The notes under the pieces were generated by a model, which saw only the letters and a program-made list of their open reading frames with translations, was not told the origin of the DNA and searched no databases. This document shows, one piece after another, positions 9,587 through 62,013 of a DNA stretch of 64,000 nt. Numbering within the stretch: the stretch's first letter is position 1; each line of letters begins with the position of its first letter. The stretch comes from Bacillota bacterium (GTDB lineage: Bacteria > Bacillota > SHA-98 > UBA4971): contig JASEJE010000001.1 in NCBI GenBank assembly GCA_030024085.1, positions 62,001 to 126,000 of the forward strand, in the 5' to 3' direction. Position numbers and translations under genes: made by a program.

Positions 9587-10447
9587 TCACCTCCGCCCGA
9601 ACAGCCCGTATGGTCTGAGAAGCAGGACCAGGATCAGGGCCACGAATGCTATGGAGTCGCGGGGCAGGAAGAGTCCCACGGGAGATATGACAAGAAACGC
9701 CTCGATGATGCCGATGAGCAGCGCTGCGATGACCGTTCCCCAGACGTTGCCGAGGCCGCCGAGGACGGCGATTGCCATGGCCTTGTACGCCGGGACGCTA
9801 CCCATGGTGGGGTATACGGAATTGTAATAGAATCCCACGAGAACCCCTGCAGCGCCCGCTATCGCGGAGCCGAGAAGGAAGTTCATTGCAACGGCGCGGT
9901 CCACGTTCACCCCGAACGCAGCCGCCGTTTCGAAATCCTGCTCGGTGGCCTTCCACGCAAGGCCCAATCTCGTATGGTTGATGACGAACCATGCAAGAAC
10001 CAGCAAGATGACCGCACTTGACAGCACGACCAGCTGGTTCCCGGTGACAACGGACGTGGTAACCTCGTCCAGCCCGAACGGCACCCGGACCGGCAGGGGC
10101 AGTACGTAAGGCCCGGCCGCCAGCCTGAACAGGTCTTCCATGAGGGTGAACATGCCAATAGACGCTATGAGGGGCACGATCCGCGACGAGCCCAGAAGCG
10201 GCCGGTAGAGCCACCTTTGCATCAGCACTCCAACGAGGCCGCAAACAAGCATGGCGAGCAGCGTGACGACCACCAGATTGGGCGAAAGCCGCAGTGCTAC
10301 AACTCCAATGTACGCTCCCAGGGCGAAGACCCCGGCATGCGAGATGTGGAGGATTCGCAGGACGCCGTACACCATCGTCAAGCCGAGAGTTACGAGGGCG
10401 TAGATGCCGCCCATGGTTACGCCGTTGACCAGCTGTTGCCAGAACAA
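9587..10447 (-). CDS. livH: LivH, branched-chain amino acid permease (system 1)
   Basis: A 286-residue permease starting MFWQQLVNGVTMGGIYALVTLGLTMVYGVLRILHISHAGVFALGAYIG, a textbook LivH N-terminus. The coupling loop is GLAWKATEQDFETAAAFGVNVD, followed by MAIAVLGGLGNVWGTVIAALLIG. It forms the heterodimeric pore with LivM. Confidence 0.93.
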   Translation of the reverse strand: MFWQQLVNGVTMGGIYALVTLGLTMVYGVLRILHISHAGVFALGAYIGVVALRLSPNLVVVTLLAMLVCGLVGVLMQRWLYRPLLGSSRIVPLIASIGMFTLMEDLFRLAAGPYVLPLPVRVPFGLDEVTTSVVTGNQLVVLSSAVILLVLAWFVINHTRLGLAWKATEQDFETAAAFGVNVDRAVAMNFLLGSAIAGAAGVLVGFYYNSVYPTMGSVPAYKAMAIAVLGGLGNVWGTVIAALLIGIIEAFLVISPVGLFLPRDSIAFVALILVLLLRPYGLFGRR

Positions 10448-17496: not shown

Positions 17497-17584
17497 GGCC
17501 CATCACCTCGCCGGAACAATGTCCATCCAAACAATACCACAGTTCTTCAGGGATTGGAAGGGTTCACAGGATGATGCAGGACGC

Positions 17585-17676
17585 TGCGAGCGCGCCGTCC
17601 CCGGAGTGCAACACCGGCAACCCTGGAGATCCCCTGCACGCTGAAAAGCAGCGCGGATTTCTGGCGATCTACTCAG
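17585..17676 (-). repeat. Foldback element, right half only (copy D)
   Basis: Matches the right half of the element at 22350-22562: GCGCGCCGTCCCCGGAG, then the CAACACCGGCAACCCTGGA block, GCTGAAAAGCAGCGCG and the end CTGGCGATCTACTCAG. The left half is absent. The terminal repeat contains the stop codon of the AlkP-like gene (17669-17671). Confidence 0.85.
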
Positions 17677-22349: not shown

Positions 22350-22562
22350 CTAAGTATGGCGCCATAAGTTTGCGCCATCTTCCCTGACGGTGTTGGGGTT
22401 GCCGGTGCTTGCTAGGGCGGGGCGTCGAGAATTTGGCTAGCCTCAAGCGCCAAATTCGAACGAGGCGCGCCGCGAGCGCGCCGTCCCCGGAGGGCAACAC
22501 CGGCAACCCTGGACAGGACTCACCCGCTGAGAAGTAGCGCGAACTTGTGGCGATGTACCTAG
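22350..22562 (-). repeat. Foldback element, full copy A (213 bp)
   Basis: Imperfect terminal inverted repeats: left CTAAGTATGGCGCCATAAG, right (read inward) CTAGGTACATCGCCACAAG. Inside is a second inverted pair, GGTTGCCGGTG / CACCGGCAACC, and a central hairpin GAATTTGGC / GCCAAATTC. It is about 90% identical by eye to the copy at 61803 and lies between hydG, whose stop codon 22559-22561 is in the terminus, and hydF, whose Shine-Dalgarno lies just outside the left end. No transposase gene is present. Confidence 0.92.
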
Positions 22563-24205
22563 AAGTAAAGATCTCGCTCTCCCTGCTCCAGCCTGGCGAG
22601 GCGTGCCACGGTCTCCTGCCGCACCTTCGGCGACGGGATCATCTCGAGATGCTGCCTTATGGCCTCCTCCCCCACTTGCCTGGTCTCGTCCGATGCGTAG
22701 TCGAGCAGGTACTCCTTGAACGTCAGGATGGCGTTGGGCTGGCAGAGGTTCTGGATCTCGCCGGTCTTGGCGAACTGCATGAACCTGTCGCCGGTGCGGC
22801 CCTTTCTATAGCAGGCCGTGCAGTAGCTCGGGATGTAGCCCGAGCGGGCGAGGCTTGCGATGATCTGGTCGGGGCTGCGGTGGTCGTCCACGGCGAACTG
22901 GGCGCTGTCGCAAGTCACGTCTTGCGTTGCGGCTCCGGCCACGTCCGCCGCCACGGCGGCTGTACCGGTAGTGGCCTCGGCAGTGCGAGCGCCGGTACCA
23001 GAGCCAGAGCCAGAGCCAGAGCCAGTGCCAGTGCCGACGGCAATGCCGATGCCGGTTTCAGTCGCCATGGTGGCGCCAGGGGCGGGGGCGGCAGTGGCAG
23101 TGCCGAAGCCCGTGGCAGCATGTGCGGCGTCCCTCGCGTCGCAGGGCTTTTGGTCGGCGCCATCGTGGTCATCCTTCCTGTAAGCCCCGACGCCGGTGCG
23201 CGACCCTGCACTGATCTGGGAGATGCCCACCGCGAAGACCTCGTCGCGGAACCCCGGTCGCTCCCGCGTCGAGAGGATCATTCCGGTATACGGGACGGCC
23301 AGGCGCAGGATGCCGACGAGCTTCTTGAAGTCCCTGTCGCTCACGAGGTGCGGGAACCTTTCGAGTGTGACGCCGCGCGCAGGTCTTAGCCTCGGGACGG
23401 AAATCGTGTGCGGGCCCACGCCGAACGTCGTGTCGAGGTGGATCGCGTGGTAGAGTAGGCCCAGGACCTCGAACTTGTAGTCATGCAGGCCGAACAGGGC
23501 GCCGATGCCCACGTCGTCGATGCCCGCTTCCATGGCGCGGTCCATGGCACCAAGGTGCCAGTCGTAGTCGGCCTTCGGGCCGGATGGATGCATCGCCGCA
23601 TAGGTAGGCCGGTGATAGGTCTCCTGGAACAGCACATAGGTGCCGATCTTCGCGGCCTTGAGGCGCCTGTAATTCTCTACGGTGGTAGCGGCGATGTTCA
23701 CGTTGACACGGCGGATGCTCCCGTTGTCAAGCCTCGTCGCGTAGATGGTTTCGATGACCTCTTCGATATAGTCCATCGGGCAGTTCACAGGGTCTTCGCC
23801 GCACTCGAGAGCAAGACGCTTGTGCCCCATGGATTCGAGCACCCTGACTTCCTCGACGACTTCGTCTTTCGTAAGACGGCGCCGGGCGAAGTCGTTGTCG
23901 CGGCGGTAGCCGCAGTAAACGCAGTTGTTCACGCAGAAGTTCGAGAAGTACAGCGGCGCAAAGAGGACCAGGCGCTTGCCGTATATTCGTTCCTTCACCT
24001 CGTGTGCGGCCCTGTAGAGAATCTCGAGAGCCTCATCGCGCGTGGCATTGAGAAGCCTCGCTACTTCGCGCGGGGAGAGGCCCTTGGCCTCGCGTGCCTT
24101 GTCAGCAATGTCCTGGACTTCACGGACATCGGGTTCGGTTGCGTCCTCGAGAAGGCCCATAATCTCGCCGTGCGGGATGAAATCATACGTCAGTCTCTCC
24201 TTCAC
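22559..24205 (-). CDS. hydG: HydG, [FeFe]-hydrogenase maturase (tyrosine lyase)
   Basis: A 548-residue radical SAM enzyme that cleaves tyrosine and delivers Fe(CO)(CN) units for the hydrogenase cofactor. The SAM cluster motif is CVNNCVYCGYRRDN at about 90-103 (C-x3-C-x2-C); the auxiliary cluster site is YCTACYRKGRTGDRF with a later Cys in NLCQPNAIL. The ending GERDLYF is the family's normal terminus. Relatives are about 460-475 residues. Here a low-complexity insertion of roughly 90 residues (about 342-432, Thr/Gly/Ala-rich with Thr-Gly/Ser-Gly dipeptides) separates ISAGSRTGVGAY from VDDHRSPDQIIASL. The stop codon lies in the terminus of repeat copy A. Confidence 0.92.
   Translation of the reverse strand: MKERLTYDFIPHGEIMGLLEDATEPDVREVQDIADKAREAKGLSPREVARLLNATRDEALEILYRAAHEVKERIYGKRLVLFAPLYFSNFCVNNCVYCGYRRDNDFARRRLTKDEVVEEVRVLESMGHKRLALECGEDPVNCPMDYIEEVIETIYATRLDNGSIRRVNVNIAATTVENYRRLKAAKIGTYVLFQETYHRPTYAAMHPSGPKADYDWHLGAMDRAMEAGIDDVGIGALFGLHDYKFEVLGLLYHAIHLDTTFGVGPHTISVPRLRPARGVTLERFPHLVSDRDFKKLVGILRLAVPYTGMILSTRERPGFRDEVFAVGISQISAGSRTGVGAYRKDDHDGADQKPCDARDAAHAATGFGTATAAPAPGATMATETGIGIAVGTGTGSGSGSGSGTGARTAEATTGTAAVAADVAGAATQDVTCDSAQFAVDDHRSPDQIIASLARSGYIPSYCTACYRKGRTGDRFMQFAKTGEIQNLCQPNAILTFKEYLLDYASDETRQVGEEAIRQHLEMIPSPKVRQETVARLARLEQGERDLYF
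22998..23033. repeat. Six 6-bp tandem repeats inside hydG
   Basis: Four CCAGAG units followed by two CCAGTG units, in frame, encoding the Gly-Ser/Gly-Thr dipeptide run in the hydG insertion. Slippage at this tract could explain growth of the insert. Confidence 0.85.
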
Positions 24206-26231: not shown

Positions 26232-26894
26232 CTATCCGAACAACCACGATGCCAGGCCCACGGCTACCCCGGTCGCCGCCACTATAGTGCCGACTATCCA
26301 TCGGACGGTGCTGTGCATCTCCCTGTGCAGCTCATCGATCTTGGCAAGGAGCGCGTCGAACCTCCTGTCAACTGCAACGAAGCGATCATCCGTTTTCCTG
26401 TCGGCTGCAATGAAGCGATCGTCCATCTTCTTGTCGGCTGCAACGAAGCGATCATCCGTTTTCCTGTCAGCTGCAACGAAGCGATCATCCATCTTCTTGT
26501 CAACTGCGATGAAGCGATCATCCATCTTCTTGTCGGCTGCAACGAAGCGATCGTTCATCTTCTTCTCCATTACAAGAAACTGATCGCCCATCTCCTGGTG
26601 CAGGCGGTCAAACCTGCCGTCGACTGCGGCAAAACGGCTGTCCATCTTCATGTCAGCTGCAACGAAGCGATCATCCATCTTCTTGTCGGCTGCAATGAAG
26701 CGATCATCCATCTTCTGGTGCAGCTCATCGGTCCCGGTATCGATCTTCTCGTGGAGCCTCTCGACCTTGTCGTCGAGCTTGCCCAACTGCTGCATGATCA
26801 TGTTGAACGGATCAAAGGACGCCCGAAAGAACATCCCCTGCTCCTCGCTGCCTGCAGCCAATTGCTTTCTGGTTTCGCTCTCGGCCACGATCAA
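26232..26894 (-). CDS. Hendecad-repeat coiled-coil protein with C-terminal membrane anchor
   Basis: 220 residues from a TTG at 26894 (LIVAESETRKQ), preceded by a GAGGAGGGGGG ribosome binding site; a longer frame to 27245 is probably spurious. About nine near-identical 11-residue units of the type MDDRFVAADKK run through the middle, interrupted once by FDRLHQEMGDQFLVMEKK. The last 25 residues are one membrane helix (WIVGTIVAATGVAVGLASWLFG). The repeats are also visible at DNA level as 33-bp units over about 26370-26710. Hendecads form right-handed or straight coiled coils; the general shape resembles Bdr- or DUF1640-like membrane coiled-coil proteins. Function unknown. Confidence 0.7.
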   Translation of the reverse strand: MIVAESETRKQLAAGSEEQGMFFRASFDPFNMIMQQLGKLDDKVERLHEKIDTGTDELHQKMDDRFIAADKKMDDRFVAADMKMDSRFAAVDGRFDRLHQEMGDQFLVMEKKMNDRFVAADKKMDDRFIAVDKKMDDRFVAADRKTDDRFVAADKKMDDRFIAADRKTDDRFVAVDRRFDALLAKIDELHREMHSTVRWIVGTIVAATGVAVGLASWLFG

Positions 26895-27069
26895 GTCGCC
26901 CCCCTCCTCTACCCAGATGTTACCACGAGCACATGCTGAACGCAATCCCCGGGGCCAAGAATCACCCTTTTGGGGGAACTCCTTTGACACGCCCCTGAGG
27001 AGGTGGGTTCTCCAGGTTCCCAGGGCGCACGCTTGCGCATATGCTGGTACAGCATGGAGGTGGACATAG

Positions 27070-27522
27070 GTGCTGGACCGCCTTGCAAGACTCGTAAAGC
27101 GGCCTGTCGAGTGGGCCGACGGGGCCATCTTCGGACGACACCAGCGCCGGGACCGTCCTCCCGACACGGTGGAGGTCTCTGGACCTGTCCAGGTGACGAG
27201 GAGACAGGGACCGGTGGCTGGGCGTCCCCTGGGGTCGGACGGCACGCCGGAAGCGGCTTACTTGAAGCCGGGAAAAGAGGTGCTGTGCGGCCCCGTCACG
27301 CTGGACGAGATCGGCGTGGCCCTGGGCGAGCTGAACATGTCGATGCGCCGGTGGTTCACGTCCAACCTCCCGCACGAGGTCTCCGTGTTCATTCCCCGCG
27401 CCGAGCTGCGCATCCGCAAGAGCCGGGGCGTCCAGGAGACTGAGATGGTGCTCGAGAGTATCACCATCGTGCACTCGCCACGTCCTCCAGCTAGACCCAG
27501 GCAGACACCTGAGCAGTCCTAA
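27070..27522 (+). CDS. Hypothetical protein
   Basis: 150 residues, divergent from the coiled-coil gene. GTG start with GGAGGTGG about eight bases upstream. The N-terminal half is basic and poorly ordered. Residues 65-135 look like a compact domain (GPVTLDEIGVALGELNMSMRRWFTSNLPHEVSVFIPRAELRIRKS). The tail is Pro/Arg-rich. I do not recognise the family. Confidence 0.5.
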   Translation: MLDRLARLVKRPVEWADGAIFGRHQRRDRPPDTVEVSGPVQVTRRQGPVAGRPLGSDGTPEAAYLKPGKEVLCGPVTLDEIGVALGELNMSMRRWFTSNLPHEVSVFIPRAELRIRKSRGVQETEMVLESITIVHSPRPPARPRQTPEQS

Positions 27523-31346: not shown

Positions 31347-32276
31347 CTAGACCTTCTCGCGCGCCTGCACCCCCAGAATCCCCGCTGGCTTCAGTATGAG
31401 CGCCACGATGAGCACCGAGAAGACGATGGCGTCCTTATACACCGGCGCGACGAAGAGCATCCCGAGGCTCTCGGCAAGGCCCAGGACGATCCCCCCGGCC
31501 ATCGCCCCCCTCATGCTCCCGATGCCTCCGAGCACGGCCGCAGTGAAAGCCTTCAAGCCCGCCGAGAAACCCATGATGAAGTCCACCTGCATGTAGTAAA
31601 GCCCGATCATCACCCCCGCGACCCCCGCAAGCCCCGACCCGATTATGAACGTCGTCGCGATAACGCCGGTCGTGCGGACCCCCATGTACTCGGCGGCCTC
31701 AAGGTCTTCGCTCGTGGCGCGCATGGCCTTGCCGAGCATGGTGCGGGAGACAGCGAAGTCGAGCGCGAGCATGATGGCTACCGACGTCGCGATGATGGCA
31801 AGGCGCGTCGCGGAGATGGTAGCCCCTGCTGCGTATACGGTCCAGCCGGGCGGGATCAGGATTTCCGTCTGGTACGCCTTGGCGCGCCCTGCGGTCAGCA
31901 GCATCGCGGCGTTCTCCAGGATGATGGACACCCCGAGTGCCGAGATGAGCGGGGCGAGGCGTGAGCTTCCGCGCAACGGGCGGTATGCGAGACGCTCGAT
32001 CGCCCCGCCGAGGAGGCTAGTGGCGGCCACTGCAGCCAGGGTCATGGCCAGGAGCACGAGCAGCGGGTTCGCCGCGAGCGCACCGCCCCTGGTGAGGAGG
32101 TAGAGCACTCCCCACCCGGCGAAGGCGCCCACCATGAACACGTCCCCATGGGCGAAGTTGAGCATCTTGAGGATGCCGTAGACCATGGAGTAGCCCAGCG
32201 CGAGCAGGGCATATACACTGCCCAGCGTGAGGCCGTTCACGATCTGTTGGGGCAACTGTGCGAGTGTCTGTTCCAT
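31347..32276 (-). CDS. livH: LivH permease (system 2)
   Basis: 309 residues from the ATG at 32276 (MEQTLAQLPQQIVNGLTLGSVYALLALGYSMVYGILKMLNFAHGDVFMVGAF). The coupling loop is GKAMRATSEDLEAAEYMGV, followed by AVLGGIGSMRGAMAGGIVLG. It pairs with the LivM domain of the downstream fusion protein. Confidence 0.92.
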   Translation of the reverse strand: MEQTLAQLPQQIVNGLTLGSVYALLALGYSMVYGILKMLNFAHGDVFMVGAFAGWGVLYLLTRGGALAANPLLVLLAMTLAAVAATSLLGGAIERLAYRPLRGSSRLAPLISALGVSIILENAAMLLTAGRAKAYQTEILIPPGWTVYAAGATISATRLAIIATSVAIMLALDFAVSRTMLGKAMRATSEDLEAAEYMGVRTTGVIATTFIIGSGLAGVAGVMIGLYYMQVDFIMGFSAGLKAFTAAVLGGIGSMRGAMAGGIVLGLAESLGMLFVAPVYKDAIVFSVLIVALILKPAGILGVQAREKV

Positions 32277-35863: not shown

Positions 35864-35971
35864 TGTTCGAACGCATCTCACCGCACGCGCCGTCCCCGGA
35901 TGGTAACACCGGCAACCCTGGCGAGGACCTGTGCGCCGAAAGCCGACGTGAATTCATGGCGACCTACTTGG
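35864..35971 (-). repeat. Foldback element, right half only (copy E)
   Basis: Starts at GTTCGAACGCATCTCACCG, nearly identical to the middle of the copy at 61803, and runs through the ACACCGGCAACCCTGG block to GGCGACCTACTTGG. It lies between the TIGR04076-ferredoxin gene, whose stop 35964-35966 is in its terminus, and the AOR ribosome binding site just outside the other end. Confidence 0.87.
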
Positions 35972-49154: not shown

Positions 49155-50060
49155 CTAAACCTTTTCGGCGACGCGTTCGCCCAATAGGCCGGTGGGCCGG
49201 AAAATCAGCAGCAGAATCAGGATAAGGAACACGAACACGTCTTTCCACGCCGCAGAGATATACCCGCCTCCGAGCATCTCCAGTATGCCGAGCAGCAGGC
49301 CCCCAACCATGGCCCCTGGAATGTTCCCGATCCCCCCGAGGATTGCGGCAGTGAAGGCCTTCAGGCCATATGACCACCCGACCGTGAAGTGGATCTGCCG
49401 ATAATACAGCCCCAGCAGCACGCCCGCCACAGCACCGAGGCCAGGGCCGATGACGAAAATCAGCCGGATGATCTGATCGACGTTGATTCCCATGAGCCTC
49501 GCGGTGTCGTGGTCGATGGCCGTGGCGCGGATGGCCGCGCCTACCGTCGTGCGCTGGACGAACAGGTACAGGCCGGCCATGAGCAGGATGGACACCATCA
49601 GGATGAGCACCTGCATGAAGCCTATGTGGACGGCCCCGATCTCCCACCTCACGTCAGGGACGGCCCACGGAGGATACGCCCGGTAACGCGGGCCCCAGAC
49701 AAGCATGGCTGCGTTTTGCAGGAATATCGAGACGCCCATGGCGGACACGACCGCGGTCAGGCGGTTCGAGCGACGAAGAGGACGATAAGCCGCGCGCTCC
49801 ACGAGCACCCCGAGGATGGCAACCCCAGTCGCTGACGCGAGCACGGTCACCGGCAGCGCCGCCCACAGAGGCAGGGCGCTGCCCACGAACGTCGCAACCA
49901 GCAAAGTGAAGCCGAAATACGAGCCAAGCATGAAGAGATCGCCGTGGGCGAAGTTGATGAGCCTCATCACGCCGTAGACCATCGTATAACCGAGTGCAAC
50001 CAGCGCGTACACCGCACCCACGGTAAGGCCGTTGACGAGTTGCTCTATGAATAAAGCCAT
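49155..50060 (-). CDS. livH: LivH permease (system 3)
   Basis: 301 residues from the ATG at 50060 (MALFIEQLVNGLTVGAVYALVALGYTMVYGVMRLINFAHGDLFMLGSYFG). The coupling loop is VGAAIRATAIDHDTARLMGINVD and the later FTAAILGGIGNIPGAMVGG block is typical. Repeat copy B lies 73 bases upstream, between it and livK. Confidence 0.92.
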   Translation of the reverse strand: MALFIEQLVNGLTVGAVYALVALGYTMVYGVMRLINFAHGDLFMLGSYFGFTLLVATFVGSALPLWAALPVTVLASATGVAILGVLVERAAYRPLRRSNRLTAVVSAMGVSIFLQNAAMLVWGPRYRAYPPWAVPDVRWEIGAVHIGFMQVLILMVSILLMAGLYLFVQRTTVGAAIRATAIDHDTARLMGINVDQIIRLIFVIGPGLGAVAGVLLGLYYRQIHFTVGWSYGLKAFTAAILGGIGNIPGAMVGGLLLGILEMLGGGYISAAWKDVFVFLILILLLIFRPTGLLGERVAEKV

Positions 50061-50133
50061 ACCTTCGGCGCGGAAGCCCCGCCTCCGCGCGGGACCTCCG
50101 CGCCGGCACCTCCATCCATTCACGTCTCAATCT

Positions 50134-50345
50134 CTGAGTAGATCGCCACAAGTTTGCGCTGCTTTCCAGTGCGCAAGGCCTGTCCAGGGTTGCCGGTGTC
50201 GCACTCCGGGGACGGCGCGCGTGCGGTGAGCCTCGTTCGAATTTGGCGCACAGGCTAGCCGAATTTCAGGCACCCCGCCCTGGCAAGCACCGGCAACCCT
50301 AACACCGCCGGAAAAAGTGTCGCAAACTTATGGCGCCATACTTAG
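50134..50345 (+). repeat. Foldback element, full copy B (212 bp, opposite orientation)
   Basis: Same element as copies A and C but inverted. The end CTGAGTAGATCGCCACAAG is at 50134 and the end containing TATGGCGCCATA at 50328-50345. The blocks GGGTTGCCGGTG, GACGGCGCGC, TTCGAATTTGGC and CACCGGCAACCCT align over the full length. It is more diverged than A is from C. It lies in the livK-livH spacer and is not in contact with a stop codon. Confidence 0.9.
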
Positions 50346-61802: not shown

Positions 61803-62013
61803 CTAGGTATGGCGCCATGAGTTTGCGCCATCTTCCCTGACGGTGTTGGGGTTGCCGGTGCTTGCTAGGGCGGGGCGCCTGGAATTTGGCTAGCCTTAAG
61901 CGCCGAATTCGAACGCATCTCACCGCACGCGCCGTCCCCGGAGGACAACACCGGCAACCCTGGACAGGACTCATCCGCTGAAAAGTAGCGCGAACTTGTG
62001 GCGATCTACTTAG
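61803..62013 (-). repeat. Foldback element, full copy C (211 bp)
   Basis: Left terminus CTAGGTATGGCGCCATGAG, right terminus (inward) CTAAGTAGATCGCCACAAG; inner pair GGTTGCCGGTG / CACCGGCAACC; central hairpin GAATTTGGC / GCCGAATTC with one G-T pair. The stop codon of the M42 peptidase (62010-62012) is in the right terminus. Confidence 0.93.

Follow-up and report, generated by a model that had tools for sequence, protein, structure and literature searches.

A conserved three-way-junction core shared by several terminal-arm families of a probable IS630-type MITE in one class of Bacillota

A structured three-way-junction core that is common to at least four terminal-arm families, in three genera of one bacterial class, is new here. 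It lies inside a short element that is very probably a MITE without genes of its own, moved in trans by a DDE transposase of the IS630/Tc1-mariner type. IS630-type MITEs resembling RUP are the kind to which both the mode of working and the membership features of this element point: it is short (<300 bp) and gene-free, its arms pair as terminal inverted repeats (294 ends in the genome), it duplicates a TA target, and its ends are homologous to those of IS630-family insertion sequences (IS), modestly so when type A ends are compared with the better preserved IS. An autonomous partner in the same genome, usual for such elements although not strictly required, was not found.

The window (the whole 64,000-nucleotide stretch analysed) contains the three full copies that a first-pass annotation had placed in it. 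Copy A occupies 22350..22562 (+), with the element proper at 22353-22559, TA duplications at 22351-22352 and 22560-22561 within the outer C..G, terminal arms at about 22350-22394 and about 22513-22562, and the core at 22397-22510 (119.9 bits with model R1). Copy C, at 61803..62013 (+), has its core at 61850-61961 (79 bits) and its TA dinucleotides at 61804-61805 and 62011-62012; it had been judged about 90% identical to copy A and measures 91% over 213 bp. Copy B, at 50134..50345 (-), matches at about 85% as the reverse complement, an opposite orientation that the annotation did not mention. Its core lies on the minus strand at 50186-50298 (101.2 bits), its left duplication has decayed to TG (50135-50136) while the right TA is intact at 50343-50344, and a BPD_transp_2 permease ORF (49155-50123, -) starts some 10 bp downstream of it. 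In G001, G003, G004 and G005 this site is without the element.

Two half-copies, expected at 17585 and 35864, were found to start inside the core and to keep the right half. The first (17582..17676, +) retains hairpin 2, the right closing stem and the right arm, its left half and some 30 bp of left flank having been deleted or replaced; the site is without an element in G002, G003 and G004. The second (35864..35971, +) begins on the 3' side of hairpin 1, its right arm ends in CTACTTGG, and the site is without an element in G001, G003, G004 and G005. Five copies or halves in 64 kb are thus present as proposed; the additional solo end is not, since a terminal-repeat scan allowing up to 4 mismatches found nothing beyond the ends of copies A, B and C and that of the half-copy at 17676.

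The neighbour of copy A, a radical SAM + BATS gene of the HydG/ThiH type (22559..24205, -), is not part of the element. It contains, in frame, about 45 residues rich in Ala and Pro (window positions ~22960-23087) that are missing in G002, and short pieces resembling this stretch occur elsewhere in genomes of the genus. Elsewhere in the window, a 33-bp tandem repeat at 26322-26748, inside the ORF 26232-27245 (-), encodes 11-residue repeats of the type KKMDDRFVAAD in a product that is likely a coiled coil with a C-terminal hydrophobic segment. Three 116-bp stretches (10316-10431, 32127-32242 and 49923-50038) that are 64-71% alike are probably paralogous transporter genes, the third falling within the BPD_transp_2 permease gene.

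The suggestion of a large genomic family proved right: a genome-wide search of the source assembly (3.1 Mb in 65 contigs, 96% complete) gives about 240 copies, which at 212 bp each amount by arithmetic to roughly 1.6% of the genome. Terminal repeats number 294 (up to two mismatches) against 0 for a reversed control pattern, matches to the core's right closing stem number 243 (up to one mismatch) against 2 for the control, and the core model yields at least 150 candidates, all listed ones passing. In about 680 kb read directly, in stretches chosen by terminal-repeat hits and so biased toward copies with intact ends, nearly all end pairs lie 209-215 bp apart; the exceptions, among them degenerate or nested copies, range from 145 to 273 bp. 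Longer pairs of terminal repeats, as for an autonomous or gene-carrying copy, were absent from these 680 kb, and no coding content was recognised in the element, in agreement with the earlier statement that it encodes no transposase. A search of plasmids and phages gave no match. Many contigs break off 30-110 bp into an element (e.g., the ends of C16, C23, C29, C34, C41 and C62 in G000), so that recent copies are probably under-represented and the family itself limits assembly; the idea that such contig ends betray a longer IS was rejected because they match the MITE itself.

Most copies start with CTAAG and finish with CTTAG or CCTAG, and their inverted terminal repeats (AGTATGGCGCCATAAGTTTGCGC / AGTAGATCGCCACAAGTTCGCGC) are imperfect. 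Empty sites in related genomes, which the first-pass annotation had proposed to compare, were found twice, and both reveal precise insertion into the target with duplication of TA. For copy A, sister species G002 has the empty site 'CTTCAGGGTTAGAAGTAG', which aligns as ...CTTCAGGG-TTAG-AAGTA with the filled ...CTTCAGGA-C-TA-[element]-TA-G-AAGTA. For copy C, the empty GTTCGAG-CTAG-CTTACGAGG of G004 corresponds to the filled ...C-TA-[element]-TA-G-CTTACGAGG. The filled pattern is C-TA-[AGT or AGG ... ACT or ACC]-TA-G, and the comparison therefore assigns the outermost C and G to the target and lets the element proper begin with AGT. Two nested insertions (L002 and L082) both begin exactly at the CTAG of a host copy, GGTGCTTG-CTAG (GGTGCTTGCTAGGGCG). 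In addition, the CTAG overlaps the stop codon of a neighbouring gene in 22 of 61 copies with context (13 TAA, 7 TAG and 2 TGA), as expected if CTAG here is often the C-TAG end of a gene that insertion converts into C-TAA; next to copy A, the TAG stop of the radical SAM/BATS gene overlaps the terminal CTAG and shows the target. These data, not a large set, comprise two clean empty sites plus two nested left junctions that are half resolved, together with the stop-codon overlap; they show insertion into CTAG with TA duplication, the signature of IS630/Tc1-mariner elements. The CTAG target had not been recognised in the first-pass annotation. Tested statistically in 69 copies, longer target duplications gave no convincing signal at any length or offset, which the 2-bp TA later explained. 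IS630 prefers TA in CTAG (Tenzen and Ohtsubo 1991, cited in PMC2170065), and for ISY100 it has been demonstrated in vitro that a bacterial IS630-family transposase duplicates TA (PMC2170065).

Wherever a site could be aligned with the syntenic stretches of five sister species, no copy or half-copy of the window proved to be shared, and the sisters carry copies of their own; orthologous copies exist elsewhere (L004/L057). At one orthologous intergenic place, L145 (G009) and L176 (G010) hold cores of type I and type II, respectively, a difference we read as independent insertion or replacement.

The annotation had also recommended looking for an IS with matching ends. None was found in this genome, and no intact IS630 transposase was found in it or in its genus (no PF13358 hit, and only weak HTH hits of NF033545 in G000), a negative drawn from an assembly that is 96% complete and breaks at many copies. 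IS630 remnants and IS do occur in sister species and in the class. In G015, an IS of 1143 bp carries HTH_29 and DDE_3 halves split by a frame break, and G014 has a second IS630-type IS; both begin with CTAAGT, in the same register as the MITE ends. Aligned without gaps over the next 34 positions, the ends of these two IS match MITE arms of the class at up to 21/34, and the A-type arms match the better preserved IS ends modestly (14-15/34, p 0.01-0.025). Closer to this genome, G004 preserves a 391-bp internally deleted IS630 fossil (L241:1434-1824) that has kept a C-terminal piece of the transposase; its end matches type D arms at 22/34 and type A (A-left) at 17/34 (p 0.0015 by shuffling). G005 carries a 514-bp remnant (L251:1530-2043) with CTAAGTCGAGCGCCATAAGTAT, compared with CTAAGTATGGCGCCATAAGTTT in this genome. 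Judged by these sequences, the MITE ends most likely derive from the IS630 lineage represented by the G004 and G005 remnants. The three-way-junction core is absent from the IS630 loci examined. G010 has a further derivative of this IS630 lineage, shortened by deletion to 157 bp (L111:1339-1495), which abuts a MITE core.

We infer the partner transposase from these remnants, an active enzyme having been seen neither in the genome nor in the genus. The partner IS, 1-1.2 kb long, would be bounded by CTAAGTATGGCGCC / CTAAGTAGATCGCC. Its transposase, from a copy that is lost, missing from the assembly or external, would bind the element ends, excise the element and paste it into the TA of CTAG. Where CTAG holds the TAG stop of a gene, as it often does, the first A of the element would restore TAA; insertion would then be harmless, which helps explain the placement of copies in intergenic DNA abutting genes. 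The core may join the two ends when single-stranded or extruded, or may bind a host or transposase factor. For an active transposase as for a role of the core, this is what we infer.

The first-pass annotation described the terminal repeats, a nested GGTTGCCGGTG/CACCGGCAACC stem and a GAATTTGGC/GCCAAATTC hairpin, all of which we recovered, and proposed that the whole unit can fold. It indeed folds at -114 kcal/mol, whereas shuffled sequences average -83 (z -7.2, 0 of 200 shuffles), and far better than shuffles on both strands (z about -7). A second hairpin (GGCGCGCCGCAAGCGCGCC) inside the GGGGCG/CGTCCCC stem, and with it the three-way junction, had been missed. The core is roughly 112 nt long. 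In copy A (22397..22510, +), it comprises a closing stem GGTTGCCGGTG(C)TTGC/GCAACACCGGCAACC that leaves one base unpaired, the inner stem GGGGCG/CGTCCCC, hairpin 1 (GAATTTGGC/GCCAAATTC) and hairpin 2 (GGCGCGC/GCGCGCC). Element positions 46-165 can still be recognised in all three genera, with differing arms. A first set of 28 sequences, aligned without fitting to a model, has both sides changed in 13 of 37 pairs. In a second set of 74 distinct sequences from other genomes, whose alignment was fitted to the core model and thus leans toward the structure, 21 of 37 pairs are changed on both sides, 94.7% of cells pair, and the covariation is 0.298, compared with 0.133 for shuffled and 0.02-0.06 for slid controls. 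Between the two possibilities first offered, a MITE or a mobile structured RNA, the MITE thus stands and the structure is, by covariation, stronger than suggested, with action as RNA a conjecture. Of 17 genomes of the class, 14 contain the core, and a sample of 299 genomes of the phylum has it in class members only. Rfam has no match to it above the curated threshold. In the limited open-access literature searched, we did not find a description of a class-wide structured core that is independent of the ends.

What such a core does can be read in more than one way. A rather unlikely account holds that it is a functional structured RNA, selfish or used by the host, for which the terminal repeats are a mere vehicle, its transcripts acting in trans or on neighbouring mRNAs. 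The strong compensatory changes seen between genera despite different arms agree with this account, as does the preference of shared changes for G-U over A-C pairs (25 vs 9, p 0.009). However, rare or private changes have no such preference (21 vs 31 in A3, 28 vs 23 in A2), the excess may stem from a few inherited events, and the model used for collecting favours G-U; a strand-specific G-U excess as proof of RNA was rejected, being significant for shared changes only. Nor is there an orientation bias to genes (23 cores sense, 17 antisense), a Rfam match or a promoter- or terminator-like site, and the core has no fewer private changes than the arms. The even orientation and the private changes are as expected if single copies are not regulators. 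Cis-regulatory use was rejected for want of a strand preference, and selection in situ on young copies because it is not seen in private changes.

Three orthologous pairs, in which the core is less changed than its surroundings, also speak for the RNA account; between G000 and G001, the core differs at about 9% and the surroundings at about 19% (hand count). This conservation would fit a function of some copies, although the number of pairs is small and gene conversion could have acted in the copy-rich genus. For G009 and G011 (L114/L115), a hand count gave 0 changes in about 88 inner bases and about 16% in adjacent intergenic DNA; G011 carries an extra partial copy beside the orthologous core L115.

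Judged by their private changes, which look neutral, the copies in this genome suggest that the fold is of importance for propagation and not for each neighbouring gene, and the simplest reading is that lineages keeping the fold propagate while single copies then drift. That the core is needed for propagation, and is not a regulator of each neighbouring gene, is accordingly a serious candidate explanation, though we stop short of calling it probable. More tentatively, the core might be a new structured RNA or single-strand DNA device of IS630-type mini-transposons, conserved class-wide independently of the ends and required for their success through transposition, copy control or transcript protection.

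Arms and core are modular. Among 114 cores typed in this genome, 74 have the arrangement A-left/core I/A-right, and hybrids include A/II/A, A/II/B and C/I/A, among others. At least one copy (L085:3432-3542), and probably L078:9933-10048 too, has its core inverted relative to the arms. A simple explanation would be exchange of arms and core by recombination in the shared inverted stem. One core with at least four arm types, hybrids such as A-left/core II/B-right and the inverted core could also mean that the core moves independently, as a unit of its own that has entered IS630-type MITEs repeatedly, and many cores of genus g2 are seemingly without CTAAG arms. Yet in several g2 copies (L132, L138, L139 and L146) A-type arms are still present in eroded form at the spacing expected, no empty site came to light for an insertion of the core by itself, and recombination in the GGTTGCCGGTG/CACCGGCAACC stem explains the swaps, which makes an independently mobile core improbable. 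An element of the REPIN/RAYT, IS200/IS605 or integron attC-like single-strand hairpin type, suggested by long imperfect hairpins in many dispersed copies, can be dismissed as very improbable, since long terminal inverted repeats combined with an exact duplication of TA at CTAG are foreign to those systems (REPIN/RAYT elements insert without the duplication), copies are dispersed and form no cassette arrays, and the empty sites contradict it.

The IS630-type MITE described here has several relatives in kind. RUP of pneumococcus, a MITE of IS630-Spn1, likewise comprises about 100-200 bp without genes in more than 100 copies, targets TA, has IS630-like ends and folds as RNA (PMC2229807; PMC3049150). 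RUP is, however, a simple 107-bp element with its IS in the genome, whereas the present one has 212 bp, a covarying three-way-junction core, several arm families and a partner that was not found; the comparison is one of published description, and the organisms are unrelated. Correia/NEMIS elements of Neisseria share TA termini, terminal repeats, a conserved core and long stem-loop transcripts (PMC2229807, PMC2649163), but IHF, RNase III and promoter functions are reported for Correia, and our element has no promoter-like site. BOX of Streptococcus pneumoniae is also modular, structured, high-copy and supposedly moved in trans (PMC3049150); it varies by repetition of boxB, whereas the element here exchanges arm and core types at near-constant length. 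TA duplication is shared with IS630 and ISY100 and the preference for TA in CTAG with IS630 (PMC2170065), and the class members in G014 and G015 start with CTAAGT. The MITE differs in having no transposase, and the examined IS630 loci are without the core.

Bacterial MITEs are usually seen as two ends with filler between them; here the filler is the most conserved part. The core has persisted through at least four sets of ends, is recombined between them and shows compensatory changes across three genera. The question of why many bacterial MITEs fold thereby becomes testable, by separating core from ends. With about 1.6% of the genome and species-specific insertions, these elements also influence how genes end and where assemblies break in this group of bacteria.
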